Shown: positions 52,935-63,903 of the stretch, one piece after another
Layout: the number at the start of each line of letters is the position of its first letter
Position numbering within the stretch: the first letter of the stretch is position 1
Assembly (NCBI GenBank): GCA_019915015.1
Contig: JAHBBC010000009.1
Location: forward strand, 620,001-684,000
Origin: Auriscalpium vulgare
Lineage: Eukaryota > Basidiomycota > Agaricomycetes > Russulales > Auriscalpiaceae
Reading direction: 5' to 3'
Length of the DNA: 64,000 nt
Notes under the pieces: generated by a model
Database searches by the model: none
The model's input: the letters and a program-made list of their open reading frames with translations, nothing else
What the model was told of the DNA's origin: nothing
Translations under genes and position numbers: made by a program

Positions 52935-53739
52935 TTATGCGGGTTGACCAGCCGAAGTAAAGTGAAACTTCTTCACATAATCGACCATGAGGTCGACGCA
53001 GAACAAGGCATCGTCATCGTATGTGTATGCATCCACTTTCATCGCAAACTTGGCTAGCGAAGGGCATGAGAGAGTCAAGGCAGAAAGGCGGACGAAAGTG
53101 GAGAAAATGCTCACCTTGAGGAATTTTCTTCGGCAGTTCGACTATCTGGATGACCGTGTAGTCACCTGGGTCGACAGGGCACGTCACGTCAGCGTCAGCA
53201 TTGCGCCTGTGCAATAGAACTTCTGTGGGTAATTCAGCGCAAGCACACCGTGTACCACGTACGCTTCCTCCCAGAGGTCGTACTGCTTCTTGAGAATCTT
53301 GAATAAGACCCAATTTCACAGTGACATCGGCATACGCGCCCTCCTATACTTGTATTAGGAATGCTAGAATACGAAGGCAAGACTTGACGCCAGGGAGTTC
53401 AGTCAACACATACCTTCACCGTCACGCCAGCGAGGGCCGCCGAGACAGTGACAGTCAAGTTCTGACCAGGTTTCGGAGGATCAGGGGATACACTAATCGA
53501 CCTGATCTGGATGGGGTCTGAAAGCGAGCCTGATAGAAAGAACAGAGGCTCGTCAGAGCACGTTGGACAGCCACCAGGTTCCGGCAGTACTTACCGCAGT
53601 CTGTCGACCAGGACCAGCCCTCCGTCGCACGGGCTGGGGGCTCCTGGACCGTGAGCGTGTCCTGCTCGCTGAAAAGAGTAAAATGGGAGACCGAGAACAA
53701 GGACATTGCAAGCAACACAAGGATAGAGAAGCGGGCCAT
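52935..53739 (-). CDS. NPC2/ML-domain lipid-transfer protein, frame-broken
   Basis: Five exons, complement(join(52935..53053,53115..53206,53263..53343,53414..53529,53595..53739)), all with GT-AG introns. The product has a signal peptide (MARFSILVLLAMSLFSVS), then DCGSLSDPIQIRSISVSPDP, PGQNLTVTVSAALAGVTVK, ADVTVKLGLI, DLWEEARNADADVTCPVD, VIQIVELPKKIP and KFAMKVDAYTYDDDALFCVD. This is the pattern of fungal phosphatidylglycerol/phosphatidylinositol transfer proteins, which bind sterols or phospholipids in the secretory/vacuolar lumen. Summed exon length is 553 nt, one more than a multiple of three. One extra base near 53,300 separates the KLGLI frame from the KILKKQYDLW frame. Either the gene is newly broken or the base is an assembly error. 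Confidence 0.8.
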
Positions 53740-54004
53740 GGCAGCACACGGCAGGGATCGAATGATCCCACCTGATGTTTGTGCGTCACTTGTCACGGGC
53801 CCTGCCATATCGAAGCGCGCGCACATGATAGACTGCGGAGGACTGCAGTGAGAAGAAAGTAGTGAGCCTCCGGAGAATTGCGTCTTGACTCTTGAAGGAA
53901 GTTGGTCGGACTAACATCCCGATGGTTCGGCTTGCATCGCTAGCACAGGCTGAGGCACCTTCCATTGCGTATCTAAATAATCACTACACAAGCTGACGCA
54001 GCGC

Positions 54005-55538
54005 TCATGCCGCCGACCGTCGGCGGACTGGCGGGCGCGTTCGCTTCCGCTTCTTCCCTTGGTCAAACGCGTTTGCCGTCTTCAGATCCCGGCCCAGGGG
54101 ATCCTCCTTCTTCACCTGGAATATCCGGACCTGCACGGAAATCATTCAGCAAACCGCGTCAGAGACGGCACAGCGCAGGGTACTCACGATCCAGTTTTCT
54201 GAGGTAAACGCCTCCTCTGGAAGAGAGGTGTAAGAGTCACGGAGGGTCCACAACTAAGTTGATCAGGAAGACGAACCTAGGTAGTCCAGTGTCGGACCTG
54301 TTTTCGGCATCACTTGGTTGCGCACGCGGTCGGTCGCCTGTCCGCCACCGAAGAGCTCGTGGAACCTGCACCACAAAGTAAGCCCAGACCCACTCATCCG
54401 CCGCGCACACCGTACCTGTAGTACGACATCTTGTACATCAGGCTGTTGCGCATGGCAGGGGACGCCTGCTCGTCGACGCGGTAGTCGCCGGACGGCGTGA
54501 AGTACTTCGGCTCCTGGATCTCGTCGGGCCACACGCCTTGCGCAATGCGCACCATCCACAGGAACTTGTTGATGTCGTCGCCCGAGTAGCCGATCAGGCC
54601 ACCGAAGATGACGAGCACGTAGTCGACGTCGTGCTTGCGCAGGATCGGGTACGCGACCTCCTCGGAGCTCGACATTGCTTTGCCTACCGTCGCGATGTGC
54701 GCTATAGCAAGCGTGGGCTGTCAGACCTCTTCGGCTTGTAAAGCGCACATAATCAGACGCACTGTTATTCCACGTGTTGTTGTCGACGAGCGTCGGGCGG
54801 TCCGCCATCCCGGCGATCTGGTACCCGTAGTCCCACCAGCTCATCACGACCGCCGTCTCGGGTGTGTTCTGACGGAGCCAGTAGTACGCCTCGCGGAAAT
54901 CGTCGATGAGCTGCAGGCCGTCCGCGTTGTGCGACGCGAGCACGACGGAGGGCGATGAGTACGCGTTCGAGGTCACCCAGGTGCAGTGCACGACGAAGAA
55001 CATGAGCATGCCAATCGCGTTCAGGATGACGGCGAGACGCGTGTCCGTGCCGAAGATGCCGGTCTTCTTCTCCTTTGCCGCACCCTTCTTCGACGTGGAC
55101 GGCGGCGTCACAACCATTCCGGAGAGCAGCTCGGTAACGGATGCACCGGACGAGGTGGGGGGAGGCGCAGTCTTGTCCTTTTTCGTCTTCTTGGGAGCGT
55201 CGGTGGTGGTCTCCGACGGCCCGCTTGTCTCGTCGGCCTCGGGCACGGGGAGGTCCGGCTCGCTCGGGTCGATGTACGTGTCGAGGACCGTCGAGAGGGC
55301 GATGGCAGCGGAGATGCAAACGACGGGTGTGAGCGTGAGCATAAGACGAACCATGACGCCCGCGAAATAGCTCCCGACAAGCGCATAAATGATCACGAAG
55401 ATGTGCTCATCGCGTAGCTCACGGAAGCACAGGACAACGCCGGCGGGGAAGAGGAAGATGAGGAAGTGCAGGTCCATGAAGAACGACGGCCAGGCGGTCG
55501 GCTGGTGCTCCGACACTGATGCGATAATGGGGATGTAT
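54005..55538 (-). CDS. STT3: STT3 oligosaccharyltransferase catalytic subunit, 3' half
   Basis: Five exons, complement(join(54005..54130,54188..54216,54277..54365,54416..54701,54763..55538)). Together with 62,401-63,903 they give a 780-residue frame with no error when one copy of the 8 nt target duplication is counted. This half begins after the 8 nt shared with the transposon target and reads [19 protein letters not shown], several membrane segments, a fungal-type low-complexity acidic/lysine loop, the catalytic [11 protein letters not shown] motif (WWDYG about 580-584), NNTWNN, and the C-terminal [19 protein letters not shown] with a basic tail. STT3 transfers the lipid-linked glycan to Asn-X-Ser/Thr in the ER. 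The first exon here is cut by the transposon at 55,539. Confidence 0.93.
55531..55538. repeat. Target-site duplication, left copy
   Basis: GGATGTAT immediately left of the transposon end. It is repeated exactly at 62,401-62,408. Confidence 0.9.
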
Positions 55539-55570
55539 AGGACCCCCGTAACTCATGCCAGGGGTATGAT
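55539..55570 (+). repeat. Left terminal inverted repeat
   Basis: Begins AGGACCCCCGTAACTCAT and ends GGGGTATGAT; 31 of 32 positions match the reverse complement of 62,369-62,400. Confidence 0.92.
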
Positions 55571-55777
55571 CCGCCAAACGGGGTCAACTACCATTTTTTT
55601 TTGCGGCTCGCGACCCCTTCCAGCTACCATTCGCCCCTCAGACCTCCGTTTGGGGTCCGTAGCTACCACGGATAGGATCATAGCTTCAAAAAAATCGTAG
55701 TTTATTGTAAAAAGCTCCGCTTTGCGTGCAGGCAGGAGGGGATGTACTACGGATGCGCAGAGGCCTGTCAAACTGAC

Positions 55778-58700
55778 CTATTCATCTGGTTCATCGTCAC
55801 CCGCCTGTTCAAGACCCGCCTTGACCCTCCCACTAAGCTCCTTGATAGCACGAGCGATATTCGCGACGTTCTGCTTGAGGGCGACATAGCACGCGCCATC
55901 AGATTTTACCAAAGCTAGTGTTGAGCCCGAGGTTTGGAGGGGATGGTCGAGGGCATACAGGAAGTAGGACGGTTTCAGGAAGGCGAACCGAGGGATCTTG
56001 CTAGGATCGGCGAGGGAGAATTGGTTGTGTCGGACCGGCTTGAACAGTCTCACAGCGATGTAAGAAAGAGCGGTGATGCGAGACGTGTCCGAAGCCCAAC
56101 CATGTTTGCCGTTCTTACCGGCCGACTTCTCGTACATGGTCAGGACTAACCAGCCATCAGCGCATGCCGAGTCATGTTGAAGATTACGACGCACCTTCTG
56201 CAAGGCAGATTGCCTCATCAACAAGAACCAAGCCATAAGAAGGCGGCATGCCAGTGTGAGCAGCGTAGAGGTGTTTGAGCGGCGTGACATTGGCCGAGTG
56301 TGCGACCTTGGGGACGTGATGCTTTGCGAAGATCGCTGCTCGCCTCCGTTCAGCCTGGCGGACGTCAATACCATGTATGTGCACTCATACAACACTAGCA
56401 GACGCACCTGATACGATGCATTTGCAGCGACCTCAGCCGCGTTTGCAGCCGTCCCTGGTGCAGGAGCAACAGCTTCTTCGCCGTTGATTGCTCCGTCTCG
56501 ACCGCCCGCAGCTGGCTGCCGCCAGCGCATCGACCGACCCGCGCCCGTGGTAACACCGCGCTCTGTAACACCGCGCTCTTCTTGACGCTTGAGAACATCC
56601 TTGACCAACTGCAGAAGGCGTTTTTTCTCGGAGAGCGTTGACTGGGCGGGTGGACCGTTATCAGAGGAAGGTGGTAGATCTTCCGAGGACTTGAAGGCCT
56701 TTGTTCGGACACCTTTCTCAGCCTGTCTGGTATGATGCGACCGGCGGATGACTGCGAGCTGTTCGAGATCGAATTCAGCAGAGATCACTGTGTCCTGGAA
56801 GGTCCTGCGCTCGTCGGGGTCGGACACAGCAGGGAGCGACTGGGCGAGGATCTTCCCTATATGTGCAGCGTCTTTGCGTGTTGCATCCGCTGTGTCTTCA
56901 GGCAATTGCAGTCTAGTAATGTGAGGGTTAGACTCTGTAAGATCTATCGGCGGTGAGAGGAGGACAAAACACGAACATGTCGACAGTGCTCTGGACGCAT
57001 AAGGCAGCTGCTGCGCAAGTCAAATCGTTCAACTGCTGGTCGAAGACCGCACCAACTCCGTCTGCATTCTCTGCCTTCTTCAACCCATTTTCAATCTGGA
57101 GCATCTCGGGCTCGTCTTCGTCCATCTCAGGACCCTCGTCTTCGGAATCGGACTGGCCATAGATTGCATCCCAAGCCTCCTGCGAATACCAACTCGACAA
57201 CGATGGGAATGCGCGAACACGGTGAGCTTGATTCTGCAATTTGTCCAGAAAATCCGGGTCTAGTACGAGAGCGTCCCACAGATTCGCTGCCTCCGAATGG
57301 GCCTGTTGTGTTGCTTGCTCAATGTCGTGATCAGAAGGGAATGTGGAGAGGGCATGGAGGTCGAGATGTCGATTGTCGGTATAGGTATGATTGTATCCAT
57401 TCGCTCTTTCCTTGCCCTCAGATGTCTTTGCAAGGAAGAGATGCTCGCGCAAGCGGACTGAGAGCTTCGGAATCATATGATAGAAGTCTTGCAAGGTGAA
57501 GTCCTTCACAAGCTGTCGACAAATGCCGAAGACATGCTCACAGACTTCGGTTGATAGAAGCCAGGGCAGCAATGGGTATCTGCCGTCGAGGTGGTCCCGA
57601 TAGATGATCACCAACTGAAGGAAACCAACGACTAGGAAGTTTGTGATGTCGCGTGCCTCGGGAGATATGAAGTGTTGAGCTTTTCGGTAGCCCGCGATGT
57701 CCATGAAGTCGGTCCACATTTCCATGAAGAAGTGCGCACGCAGCACCATGCGAACACGTTCGATAATTGGGATCGATCGATTCTGGTATGCATCCACGAG
57801 CTCTCCAAACACAAAGAGGTAGATAATCGAGCCGACCATTTCACGATGCTCGTTGGTGAACCATGCTAGCGTATGACCGGAGAAGAGACGGGTCGCAGCA
57901 TTGTCGTCTTGTCGATCAAGTTTCTCGACATCCCTCCGAAACAATGTCCCTGTTGCTTCAATTGCTGCAAGGCGGAAGTGGCTGTACGACGTCGTATAGC
58001 TGCCCAAAGTAAGTATCCGGGCACCTGAGAATGCGTTGTTCCGGTACGTCTTGCGCCCATGGTTCGAATCTTGAATGAGTGCGACAGGCTGTCGCCCTGC
58101 GCCGATGAGAGGAATGTGGAGGTTGATGTCACGATGTGAGCGAATAGGGTGCCTGAGGGTGTAGTCAATGTACGCAACGGCGTGAGCGACCAGGAGACGT
58201 TGAAGGGAGCGCTCGACAGCCGTGCCGTCTGCGGCGTAGGATACAACGTTGATCTTGCGGGAGAGAAGGCCATTCAATATTAATTCCAGGTGGACGAACA
58301 GTTGCTCCGCCGAGTTTGACTCTGAGATAGGGAGCGCCGCAACGACGATAGTCGGAACGCCGGGAAGAGGGATCTGGAGGGTCCATACGCGTATCTGGCA
58401 TGTGTCGGTGAGCTGCATGCCTCCGAAGTATTCGTAGAACTCATACCTTCTTAGCCTTCTCGATCTTCCTGGTGCGGATGAGGGCATCGAGTGTGTTGAT
58501 GTCGCTCACGACGACGGGATCGCCAGGACTCCCTAGAAGCACGTAGCACTTTCGTATTGGGTCCCAGTGAGGCCTCAAAGACTCTAGCAGCTTCGTATCA
58601 TCACATGCGAGGCCAACGGGACCCACAAGGTAGTCCAATGATTTCAGCCGTTCGTAGATAAATTCAAATGTTGCCTCTGTGATGCCGATGGGAAACTGCA

Positions 58701-59032
58701 CTTCGTGCGCACGACGTTTCCTTCGGGTCATTTATCAGTCAATTGTATCAATGCAATCTTGTAAACACTGACTGGAGTGTCCGTTCTGCGGGTACGGGTA
58801 GCACATTCATCATGGATTCATATGCTCGCGGGCTTAAGACGTGGATAATTTGCGCCCACTCCAATGTCATGGCTGAATATCGCATGCCGTTCAAAGGGAC
58901 ACCTCGTTCTTCTAAATCTTTCTTCTTGACGAGATCGTTCATCAAGGCGACAAACAAGGAATTGCCATGCTTGCCCTCGATAACGCCTCTTGCGAAGACT
59001 AGGCATGCACTATGAGGGTTCTGTGCAGACAA
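55778..59032 (-). CDS. RNase H-like transposase (C-terminal part of the element's protein)
   Basis: Several exons with short introns. Reading from 59,032: NPHSACLVFARGVIEGKHG...ALMNDLVKKKD, then PVGLACDDTKL (first acidic pair), IRVWTLQIPLPGVP, VVSYAADGTAVER, ALIQDSNHGRKTYRNN (P-element-like acidic/His/Lys/Arg-Asn motif), LLSTEVCEHVFGICR (candidate catalytic Glu), HHTRQAEKGVRTKAF and a C-terminus ending in an acidic EQAGDDEPDE plus stop at 55,778. The order D...D...E resembles P-element/hAT-type RNase H transposases; the exact triad is inferred. An intron (59,036-59,095 region) probably joins it to the upstream frame, making one long protein. Confidence 0.8.
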
Positions 59033-59035
59033 TGA

Positions 59036-62000
59036 TCAGAAGCTGTAACGTGGGGATACTATGAACTTGAAGCTACTGACATCTTCGTATGCCTCCAGAA
59101 GAGGTGCAAGGTCGGGATGAGTAAGAGCATATCGATGGAGGGCCTGTATGTCGTCTTTCTGAGCATGATTGGGGGTGAAGCGGCGATTCTTAGGCTCGGG
59201 GACTGGCTTGCGAGTCGCATTCTGGAATACGTGGACATGCAGCAGAGCGAGGCAGTTGACACAAGTAACATCCTCAGTTGACTCTTCCGGCACCCTTACA
59301 GTGCGAAGACAATCTGTCGCAAGGACATGAAGGGGAGGCGACCGATAGTTCTTCCACTGCCACCGATGCTCTTGCTCCGTGTCGACTACTTGCTTTCTGG
59401 CCTTATCCAACGAACGATAATCTGGTGCCGAATACAACTCTAACGCCAAATCGGCGAGGGAAGGCCCGCCGCCCCCGCCGTATGGTGTGCGCTCCAAATA
59501 TTGACGCACACGAGCGTATTTTGCTGCGCGAAGTCCGAAACAAGGACGATCTATCATTCTCGGAGCGGGGGCCTGCGTCGATGAGGTTGATGCCCAGATG
59601 TGGCCCAGTGTATGTGATCGCATTGTGCCCTTGCAAACTTTCTGGTGCTGTTTGAATGCCTTGGTGTGATACGCCCCAGTCATAAGCATGTACTTGTTGC
59701 ATCGAGAGCATCGGACCTTCCGAACATCGTCTAGACAGAACTCGGCCATGTCGTCAAGCGCAAGGATTTTCTCCTTGAATTTGGTATACGCCTTTGAGTT
59801 GTCGTCCCTACCGCGTTTGACGAAGGAATTGGCCAGGCGCGTGCTGATTGCTCCAGACGATGGCCCAACATCAGCGCTTGCGGTGCTTGCAGACACGGTA
59901 GCAATGACATCCTTATTCTTTCCCTTGGGCGCGAAGAACGGATGAATGGGCCCAGGGACAGTGCGTGTGCGTTTTGCAGGATGGATAGGCGCCTGAGCCT
60001 CTGAGTCGTGGTCAGATTGAGCGCTTGTTGCTTCACTCGCGCTCGCAGCCGTCTTGTCGTCTGCGCTCGAGCTCCCTTTCCTCCGCCTTTTCAGTAAGCC
60101 CCGCGCAGCCTTCAGTGTCGTCCCAATGGAACTGATGATCTTCTTAGATGCCCTTGACAGTCGACTTCCATCGGATGCGCAATCCTCCGCCTCACTTCCC
60201 ACCGACGACACCCTTCTTGACGACATTGACGCAGCATCAGAAGTCCCATTTTCCAAATGGCTTCTCCATTCTGTGATACTGCCAGGCCCATCCTGGTCCA
60301 GCATTCCACCACGCGGAACTGGTGGGAGATCATCGTCGACAGTGGATGGAGAGAGCAACGACCGGCCGTATGCGCAGCTGGTATCGGTGGTATCGGGCAT
60401 AGGTATGTCGTCGCAGTCGCTGTCATAGCCACTAGCAGATGCAAGTACTGAATATGATGATGTAGGAGAAGGTGGCATTGACAGAGGTGGAATTGACGGA
60501 TCGTATTTGCTGCCTTCGTCCATGTCTCCGCGTCGCCCCATCTGCTTTTCTTCCACCTCTGGACTGAATCCTTCAAGTAGACATTCAGCATCTCTGGTCG
60601 ACTCGCCGGGTTCGGAAGCTTGAGGATTTAGAAGGTGGGCCATCCCGCGAGGGATATGATGCGCAACAGGCTCATCGCGTCCGGCGCCGCCTGTCACAGC
60701 ATCAGACCGTCGCTGATGACTTGATACCTGCGCAGAGCACCTGAGTATCGTCGTCCTCATGTCGCTAATGAGCAAAATATAGCGTACCGATTGAATATGG
60801 TCGGCAGCGAGCCTCTCGAACCACGCCAACCGTTCGACGTGGCGCCTTGAATCATCCCAAAGCTGCCAGCCCAGTGTTTCGTGTGCGACCGCATTCACGG
60901 CGATCACGCCACACGATACGTGATCTGTCTGTCTCGCTGTCGTAAGCGACTGTCCCTCCCACTTGTACTCAATGCCGAATTTGACACGCGTCCACCAGAG
61001 CAATTTCTTCTCGATGTCTTTAGGCAGGCGCAGTCCCTGATGGTAAAGGCCGTCGCCTTGTTTCACAGGAATGGTAAGATTGCATTCCCATTGGCGACAT
61101 AGTAACGTACTCACCATAGGATATTGTTTCCGCTTGACCGTCGATCTTCACGACAACAAAATGCTTGTATTTGGCGAGGAAAACAGGGAAGAGGAGTACC
61201 TTCCTATGGGTGCGCAGATCGTCTTCAATTCTCTTGAGGTAACGAGGTGAGTCGGGGAACAGGTCTTCTATTACTGTGATCTTTGAAATTGCATTCCAGA
61301 ACTCGTGTCCGGCGATCTCGAAGTTGTTGGCAATTCCTGGCGTGCTCCGAACGCGGCTTCTCAACCACATGAGCATCATGTCAACGATGGTGTCGGTGAG
61401 AAGGCCGTCTGATAACAGCGGAGCAAGGGCTGATGTTGTCGTAAATGTGGCGGCACCGGGTATCATGAGTTGCTGGCGCCAGGGAAGCGAGTGGATAAGA
61501 GCAACAGTGCGTTCGCTTTCCATAGAACCGTCAGCGACTTGTAGCAGCCACCGCACGCTCGCCGTCCACGTCTCCTGTGCCAGGAGGACCGTACGCATCC
61601 GTTGCCAGTAAGTGATCATCCACAGCGGGGATGCACCACTTGCATATCGTGGGTCCATGATTGATTGTGCGCCATCCAGGATGGCCTGCGGTGCGAGTGC
61701 AGCAAGCTTGTCCACGAAGGCATCCGTAGGAAGGCTTCGTGATTTTGTAAGTGTGGTTATGGGGAAGACTGCCACGTCATGGCTAAAAACAGCTTTGGTT
61801 GAGGGGTGTATGAGCTGCTGATCGCGACGAGGGAGTGGTGTAGATACGAAGGAATGAACATCCTCGGTGCCGCTGGGGAGCAAAGAAGTCTCGGGAGCGT
61901 TGGGAATCCTGAGGAGCTGCTCGATGTAGGCCAGCAGCTCCGGCGGTGGGTTCTGGGGATAGCTTTTGCCTTGCGAGATCCATAATTCGGGACGGAACAT

Positions 62001-62042
62001 AGGTATTTCATCGTCGTTGTAGATTGTGATGGACTCATCCAT
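59036..62042 (-). CDS. Ulp1-like protease and zinc-finger region of the transposon protein
   Basis: From ATG 62,042 (MDESITIYNDDEIPMFRPEL) the first exon runs to about 61,115. It ends with a Ulp1-type fold start: LSDGLLTDTIVDMMLMWL, then AKYKHFVVVKIDG with the catalytic His. After a short intron it continues LYHQGLRLPKDIEKKLLWW and QTDHVSCGVIAVNAVAH, the Gln/Cys motif of SUMO-type cysteine proteases. A long Ser-rich, low-complexity linker follows, then VRCSRCNKYMLM...HQKVC, a CxxC...H...C zinc-binding motif of BED-finger type, and CVNCLALLHVHVF. The frame stays open to 59,036, where splicing to the transposase core is likely. Exact splice sites at 61,055-61,117 are uncertain. Confidence 0.75.
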
Positions 62043-62368
62043 TGGCACGATGCCGGGATGGCTGCGAGGGTGATGCGCTGCACAGAAGAAGCAGGTTCGG
62101 TCCGAGGCGTTGTCGTAGAATGTCGTACGCAGCAGGCCACGTAAATTTCTACCTAATGTCTCAACTTGTACGAATTATACCGGTAATTATGGGGTCAAAA
62201 TCTTCTGCCGCCAGTACTTAGTCCAACTACCTCTGTGATCAGACATCGGTTCACCGCGCCCCTAACTACCACCATCAGGATCATACTTTTGCCCCAAATT
62301 CTAGCCCCCAGCTACCTCAGACCCCTCAGAGCTTCCGGCGCAAAGCGCCGTCTAGCTACCGTGCGAAA

Positions 62369-62400
62369 ATCATACCCCTGGCGTGAGTTACGGGGGTCCT
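62369..62400 (-). repeat. Right terminal inverted repeat
   Basis: Reverse complement begins AGGACCCCCGTAACTCAC; it differs from the left repeat only at position 18. Confidence 0.92.
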
Positions 62401-62408
62401 GGATGTAT
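62401..62408. repeat. Target-site duplication, right copy
   Basis: GGATGTAT, identical to 55,531-55,538. On the minus strand these are the first 8 coding bases after the AG splice acceptor at 62,409-62,410. Confidence 0.9.
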
Positions 62409-63903
62409 CTAAAATGAACTCAATGTCAGGTCCAAGCGCTCTGTGCGAAGCATGCGTACTTCTTGGCATAGCCGGTGTCCCAGAGCGAGTAGAAACGCCC
62501 AGTCCAAGGGGCGATCCAGCCCATGTAGGTCAATCCGACAATGGCGACCGTACCAACAACGCCGGCACCGACGGCGAGGGCGAAGAGCAAGTTATTGAAC
62601 TGCTTTGAAGACACATGCGAGCGGACGAGCTGCACGAATGCGACGATCTGCAACAGGCCGAAGACGCCTGCCGGTGGATAATAATGCCGTCAGCGTCTCA
62701 CCAAATACGCAGCGCATCATCACTGACCAAGAGCGCCCATGTGCTCGCTAGTGCGCACCGGCTGGAAGCCGACGAAAGGCACCTGCATGCTAGCGAGCGT
62801 GCCGATGGCATACCATGACGAATACGCGACATAGAGGCGGTTGGTGAAACGGCCCATGAGGAGAAGCGCCAGCGCGTGGAGCGGGATCATGTTCGTGATG
62901 AACGCATATCCACCTGGATAGCGCTAAGTACGCCACACGGGCACCCGTAGGAAAGAAACGCACCCCATGCAGCAACCATGTAGAAATAGAACACGGCTGC
63001 GAGTGTGCCAAAGAGCGCACTGCCCTGCTTGAGTGCCTTGATCCAGAGGAAGAAGGTGAACATCAGAAGGAAGATGGCGATGGCCTCGTTGTCATATGAG
63101 CCTGCGACGGAGCGCGAGATGTAGCCAGGGACAATGCCGATGAAAGCTGCGGCTAGCAGTCCAGCACTCTCGTCCTTCATCTCCTTGGTGAACCTGCGGC
63201 ACAGGGCGTCAATTTAGGTCGAAACGAGACGTGATGCTGCCGCGTCGCAGTAGCCAGATGGATGAAACAACGGCGCCGCAAGTGCGTTCATTTACCGACG
63301 CGGCCTGGGTGCAGCATGAGAGGGATGAAGAGCACTCACATGTAGGTGGACCAGGCTGTGAGGGCACTGAAACCGGGCGCCAGCATCACGCAGATGTTGC
63401 GGATGTCGACAGGGATATGGATAGCCTGGAGAAAGTTGTAGATGACGCCGCTGGTAGCCATTAAGCCAGGGTAAATGGTGCCGCCAACGACGCGTCCCAG
63501 TGGATACCATGCTGTGGGATCAAACCAGTTCCAAAATTCCTGCAACCGTGTCAGGTTAAGGAAAGCACAGGAGTGAACGCGCTACGCACATAAAACCCCT
63601 TGGATGCCAACACTCGCGTAGCGCGACTGCATATCCGTCAGTTACCGCGTACAGGCTTCCGCAGCGCACGTACTAATTGAACCACGGATCGCTGGCATGG
63701 AAAACGTTAGCAATACAGTCCACTGAAGACAGTCACAGCACGCACAATTCATGGATGATACTCTCGAAGTTGATGACAGCGAATAAGCGTGAGGCAATGG
63801 CCGCGCCCGAGATGAGTGCAAATGCGACGATTCGGACCAGCGACTTGGTGTTGGTGACCGTCGCCGGCGAAAGGTCAGTAGGGAGCGGATATGCCCTCGG
63901 CAT
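62401..63903 (-). CDS. STT3: STT3 oligosaccharyltransferase catalytic subunit, 5' half
   Basis: Exons complement(join(62401..62408,62460..62667,62728..62913,62964..63193,63340..63539,63590..63626,63674..63691,63746..63903)). It starts at ATG 63,903 ([18 protein letters not shown]). A first membrane segment and the conserved [19 protein letters not shown] loop (E-F-D at 52-54, metal-binding Asp) come next, then [24 protein letters not shown], many membrane segments, [14 protein letters not shown] (second acidic motif), [15 protein letters not shown] and the end of a loop reading WDTGYAKK. Intron phases match across all junctions, including 18 nt and 37 nt exons. The transposon begins 8 nt into the next exon, so a normal mRNA cannot be made from this allele. 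Confidence 0.93.

Follow-up and report, generated by a model that had tools for sequence, protein, structure and literature searches.

A P-like transposon in the STT3 gene of Auriscalpium vulgare, one of about 70 near-identical copies in the assembly

The split STT3 gene

The window analysed here, 64,000 nucleotides of the saprotrophic pine-cone mushroom Auriscalpium vulgare (G000:C9:620001-684000, in an assembly of 51.63 Mb and 96 contigs), carries the gene STT3 for the catalytic subunit of oligosaccharyltransferase, split by a P-like DNA transposon (Table 1). Our gene model reproduces the 12 exons and 780 codons of the original prediction, since the frame is free of errors over 780 aa once one GGATGTAT copy is removed together with the 6,862-bp element. 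The resulting empty-site protein matches family PF02516 and contains both the SVSE and the WWDYG motif. The element is flanked by GGATGTAT on both sides and lies 8 nt into exon 8, just past its AG acceptor, as had been noted; the part of exon 8 that precedes it consists of exactly the 8 duplicated nt, which read ATACATCC on the gene strand.

The native acceptor of exon 8 is kept, but opens directly onto element sequence. With intron 7 spliced normally the predicted product ends at 377 aa, of which 348 derive from STT3, and this bears out the earlier claim that the insertion breaks the gene. Both the SVSE glutamate (residue 356) and WWDYG (residue 580, in the numbering of the empty-site protein) are missing from it. 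In an alignment counted by hand this glutamate falls on position 350 of yeast STT3, and Glu350 of the yeast protein is said to complete the active site (PMC9701220). Judged by its sequence, the assembled STT3 allele is a null, and the broken copy would presumably be transcribed and yield a truncated protein.

It had also been held that splicing could not neatly remove the element. From the exon-7 donor none of the 408 AGs within the element gives an open in-frame entry to the second duplication, and exact splicing-out is therefore rejected. The statement was too strict in one respect: if one donor inside the element is allowed (donors preceding the first stop, acceptors within the last 400 nt of the element), there are two in-frame combinations, both using the same ATGAG acceptor in the terminal repeat. 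The shorter one runs from terminal repeat to terminal repeat, and would retain 22 nt of the element and give an STT3 with 30 extra nt, that is 10 added codons and no stop. We give next to no weight to such a rescue, although frame and stop-free reading speak for it. The score of the acceptor (-5.3) is reached by 402 of the 407 element AGs, while none of 18 real acceptors falls below it, and the intron would measure about 6.8 kb as against 39-146 nt for the 18 modelled introns. The donor is also weak, yet one of 18 real donors is weaker. These scores come from a matrix built on the 18 introns of two gene models, which is a small training set. Rescue of STT3 by splicing appears very unlikely.

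Table 1. Window coordinates of the STT3 gene, the inserted element and the cryptic splice sites
Feature	Position	Strand	Remark
STT3, oligosaccharyltransferase catalytic subunit	54005..63903	-	12 exons; 780 codons once the element is removed
STT3 exons 1-4	63903-63746, 63691-63674, 63626-63590, 63539-63340	-	
STT3 exons 5-7	63193-62964, 62913-62728, 62667-62460	-	
STT3 exon 8, split by the element	62408-62401 and 55530-54763	-	
STT3 exons 9-12	54701-54416, 54365-54277, 54216-54188, 54130-54005	-	
Target site duplication GGATGTAT	62401..62408	.	STT3 exon 8, nt 1-8
Target site duplication GGATGTAT, second copy	55531..55538	.	
P-like DNA transposon, 6,862 bp	55539..62400	- (strand of its gene)	Oriented as STT3
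Terminal inverted repeat near STT3 start	62369..62400	.	
Terminal inverted repeat near STT3 stop	55539..55570	.	
Gene for 1,965-aa protein, 8 exons	55778..62042	-	Splice sites chosen by eye
Element gene exons 1-4	62042-61115, 61056-59060, 59020-58773, 58720-58447	-	
Element gene exons 5-8	58394-56977, 56912-56408, 56354-56195, 56145-55778	-	
Cryptic repeat-to-repeat splice, GT	62390..62391	-	CCCCC^GTAACT
Cryptic repeat-to-repeat splice, AG	55552..55553	-	GGCATGAG^TTACGG; very weak

The element and its relatives

The terminal inverted repeats are 32 bp long and 97% complementary. In the protein encoded between them a Ulp1-like region, with motifs at 291 and 354, precedes a P-type transposase core, with motifs at residues 1097, 1203 and 1430. 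Taken whole, this protein has no match in Pfam at E 0.01. Motifs of Ulp1 type, KYKHF and DHVSCG, can be read in it; the Ulp1 peptidase family PF02902 is matched by nine of 12 relatives (P0121-P0132), whose profile finds yeast Ulp1 with an E-value of 3.8e-15. For the transposase part, the CDD, ADG and CEH motifs stand in near-invariant alignment columns, with no residue-by-residue correspondence seen to the catalytic D-D-E triad D230, D303 and E531. The Pfam helix-turn-helix (HTH) family Tnp_P_element (PF12017) scores 17.8 bits on an open reading frame (ORF) of the window, under its cut-off of 23 bits, and is matched at E 0.01 by three of the 12 relatives.

Sequence profiles run against solved structures found Ulp1 and no P transposase, which was reached by the fold comparison of the relative P0134 alone. 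That comparison led to a P-type transposase with HTH, RNase H core and a large helical insertion domain. Exon 5 of the element itself, folded alone, gave a weak model (predicted local distance difference test, pLDDT, 67.5) and no structural match. No THAP zinc finger was matched at E 0.01 in the element protein or the 12 relatives, and a review describes fungi as being without THAP domains. The element is therefore filed in the P superfamily only, and not in the branch of the animal P element and THAP9.

Duplications of 8 bp by themselves do not discriminate between superfamilies. An assignment to another group that makes them, for instance hAT or KDZ/Zisupton, would accord with the missing Pfam match of the whole protein and with a comparison set that contained no KDZ or Zisupton references; we consider it quite improbable. 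Overall, the element is apparently a complete, autonomous cut-and-paste transposon of P-superfamily type. Going by the family name, our guess is that the Ulp1-like region cleaves SUMO from host or transposase proteins. Seven of nine CTACC motifs lie near the two ends of the element (55588-55667, 62227-62360) and may be binding sites of the transposase.

The Drosophila P element (transposase structures 6p5a and 6pe2) likewise makes an 8-bp duplication and has terminal repeats of about 31 bp, and its transposase resembles P0134 in overall fold (an HTH, then an RNase H core into which a long helical domain is inserted), at 16% identity across the aligned fold. It is, however, only 2.9 kb long as against 6.9 kb, and carries a THAP domain where the mushroom element, with no detectable THAP, has its Ulp1-like N-terminal region. 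Rusts are already known to have P-superfamily elements, with autonomous copies and 8-bp duplications described in Melampsora larici-populina (PMC3164196), and the mushroom element is thus not the first fungal P element. The rust elements (Repbase P-1_PSt, P-1_MLP and P-2_MLP) share with it the basidiomycete host, the superfamily and the duplication length; they were compared by description only, and the accessible part of that description mentions neither a protease domain nor a large recent burst (PMC3164196).

Closer relatives are found in the Agaricomycetes, where P-type/Ulp1 proteins (P0121-P0132, for example in Bondarzewia mesenterica), known as protein records only, belong to the same family and are 30-46% identical to parts of the element protein. 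Two A. vulgare proteins of the family, P0134 and P0135, match the exon-5 protein at 62% and 59% identity and represent other lineages, not this element. Among 120 listed of 432 hits to the exon-5 protein no A. vulgare protein is closer than these two. This suggests that the other A. vulgare record may be without the element, although repeat masking or short-read assembly could hide copies. The literature, covered by titles and the beginnings of abstracts and with few subscription journals, gave no P element of Agaricomycetes and none fused to Ulp1. As far as seen, the mushroom element stands apart from the fungal P elements already known by its host class, its Ulp1-like fusion and its burst.

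Copies in the assembly

The STT3 insertion is one of about 72 copies, which goes beyond the original prediction. In the assembly, 72 sites match an internal probe of 34 bases (71 of them exactly; control 0), and 133 match the terminal-repeat pattern (control 0). Pairing the first 100 of the 133 listed ends gives 43 pairs, of which 20 measure 6,862 bp and 11 measure 6,861 bp; none of the 43 is a short deleted copy. Twenty full-length copies are identical, each between perfect 8-bp duplications (20/20), which argues that the duplication in STT3 is not due to chance; they were the top 20 among 76 candidates, and their identity is therefore a selected property. In four further copies, picked for their differing lengths, deletions of 1-2 nt and two substitutions in total were seen, with perfect duplications in three and none in one. 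The small deletions look like uncorrected long-read errors. Since sampling was best-first and the further copies were picked by hand, they give no date for the burst. The earlier view that the insertion is very recent is supported, and the sequences point to a recent burst of some 70 near-identical copies in this strain.

The 20 insertion sites show a weak palindromic preference over 14 bp (2.43 bits, against 0.77 +- 0.25 in random sets, none of 2,000 reaching it). Pfam matches were obtained for three of 20 flank ORFs at 14 insertion loci: WD40-type (L008), ferritin-like (L019) and a sub-threshold CBM_21 (L016). Inspected by eye, the L019 insertion (G000:C3:60249-67110) lies near CCAAT-like and TATA-like motifs, upstream of the ORF with the ferritin-like domain. 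One copy of 6,861 bp (L039, G000:C1:2250985-2257905) has flanks without a common 8-bp duplication, from recombination between copies or a wrong join.

Five of the 20 sites sit inside other repeats, leaving 15 in single-copy sequence. One of these, on contig C64 (L006, G000:C64:22814-29675), has an empty allele on contig C20 (L036, C20:952130). Up to the site the flanks agree without mismatch over 1,500 bp, and beyond it over 1,030 bp; a more distant stretch of 8,001 bp is reported at 100% identity with one extra base on C20. An occupied and an empty site between identical flanks imply that at least one insertion was present in only part of the sequenced culture, and the two states on otherwise identical chromosomes are most simply read as transposition within the clone.

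In two further pairs, C68/C1 and C73/C5, a small contig shares 2,001 bp with a large one at full identity. They come from a pass over 14 contig pieces in which 40 of 151 candidates were scored. Pieces of C50, C68 and C73 recur once at 100% on a larger contig; those of C46, C48, C66 and C71 match only themselves, that of C60 recurs inside its own contig, those of C52, C56, C62 and C65 are repeats, and C54 and C58 were not recovered. The insertions at C50:34896 and C68:36698 (L065-L070) have perfect 8-bp duplications, and the sampled parts of their contigs are identical to C12 (for C50) and C1 (for C68). Candidates for further polymorphic insertions, they are not counted as such, as no empty sites lie where a simple offset predicted them. 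Also uncounted is a second copy on C64 (L038 and L071, G000:C64:65700-72561), whose flanks are unlike: the right one is element sequence (window 60924 onward) and the left one is not, so that this copy is nested, recombined or misjoined.

Intact alleles and the fate of the split gene

The closest public STT3 is an intact A. vulgare gene of 780 aa on a contig of 11,008 bases. It is identical to the empty-site protein at 779 of 780 residues, and the one residue that differs indicates another assembly and very likely another strain; STT3 of the next-closest species is 90% identical. The present assembly is most likely that of A. vulgare CBS 236.39, which is described as 51.68 Mb in 104 contigs with an N50 of 1.721 Mb, for which Canu, pilon and HaploMerger2 were run on PacBio and Illumina data (PMC8401616). 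As far as the accessible part of that paper on pine-cone fungi goes, every sequenced strain was dikaryotic and HaploMerger2 separated two haploid sub-assemblies (PMC8401616).

We favour, with a probability of about 0.74, a recent null allele of STT3 under the shelter of nuclei that carry the gene intact and are not represented in the assembly. The P-like transposase would excise the element and insert it at an 8-bp target of loosely palindromic sequence; here that target is the first 8 nt of exon 8, which now stand duplicated on either side. The insertion would be recessive, and selection would spare the null allele as long as other nuclei supply STT3. Other nuclei of the same mycelium would carry the empty, intact site, and the assembly would happen to show the occupied form. 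Several points weigh against this. A search of the assembly gave no empty STT3 site; of the 15 single-copy sites, 14 (STT3 among them) are present in the occupied form only, all 28 scored candidates being occupied half-sites. The strain is inferred from species and assembly size, and an intact STT3 in this culture is likewise an inference, drawn from assembled sequence. STT3 has moreover been deleted in Verticillium dahliae (PMC10141488).

The original prediction called for an intact allele or a second copy of the gene, or else tolerance of strongly changed N-glycosylation. An intact allele exists within the species. As to a second copy, neither another STT3 was found in the assembly nor an allelic copy of the STT3 flank, whose sole other match, on C7, is 71% identical and covers the first 742 bases. 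The matching part of the flank (window positions 53000-53741, next to STT3) has its paralogue at G000:C7:1292025-1292733.

The proposed shelter was the other nucleus of a dikaryon. In an ordinary dikaryon a divergent second haplotype with an intact STT3 would have been lost at haplotype separation, and no transposition in culture would be needed. The dikaryotic strains and the use of HaploMerger2 (PMC8401616) make this a possibility to be taken seriously, if short of probable. However, the duplicated stretches that remain (C64/C20, C68/C1 and C73/C5) are identical and not divergent, so that a clonal mixture of near-isogenic nuclei explains them at least equally well. Since divergent haplotypes could have been taken out earlier, the identity of the remaining pairs is weak evidence against the dikaryon. 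This explanation overlaps with the one we favour, since both keep an intact allele in other nuclei.

A further explanation, which we hold to be unlikely, is that the null allele is fixed and the fungus lives without full STT3 and with strongly changed N-glycosylation. It would agree with an assembly in which the occupied form stands alone and with the tolerance of STT3 deletion by V. dahliae. Against it, STT3 is essential in yeast and could not be deleted in Aspergillus fumigatus (PMC10141488), and the gene is otherwise intact, at 779 of 780 residues identical to the public allele. The earlier statement that STT3 is essential in fungi holds for yeast and A. fumigatus but was too broad in view of V. 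dahliae, judging from the part of that source available (PMC10141488); in the present fungus loss of STT3 may be lethal. Finally, an assembly error at a repeat is hardly credible, since faults do occur at the element (L039 without matching duplication; C64:65700 flanked on one side by element sequence) but at STT3 the flanks rejoin exactly to give an intact gene and the duplication is perfect, which is not what a wrong join would give.

The original prediction was right in each measured detail and partly right in its interpretation. Taken alone, the STT3 insertion would be ordinary and recessive, and the interest comes from an active-looking element of about 70 copies with at least one insertion unfixed. 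Tentatively, and with less confidence than we place in the sheltered allele, we suggest that a P-like element fused to Ulp1 is invading one lineage of A. vulgare and is still transposing in the cultured mycelium, its insertions segregating among isogenic nuclei (as seen for C64/C20 and presumed for STT3) while the multinucleate mycelium shelters lethal hits. If true, the mushroom would offer a fungal parallel to the invasion of Drosophila by P, and crosses would be predicted to show dysgenesis-like effects. A supposedly essential gene that is broken in a reference genome offers a testable case of complementation between nuclei within one mycelium. An apparently active P-superfamily element in a mushroom, with its Ulp1-like fusion and seemingly fresh burst, could serve as a tool for mutagenesis, being autonomous as it appears and present in dozens of intact-looking copies, and could be a system in which to watch a young transposon meet the defence of its host genome.
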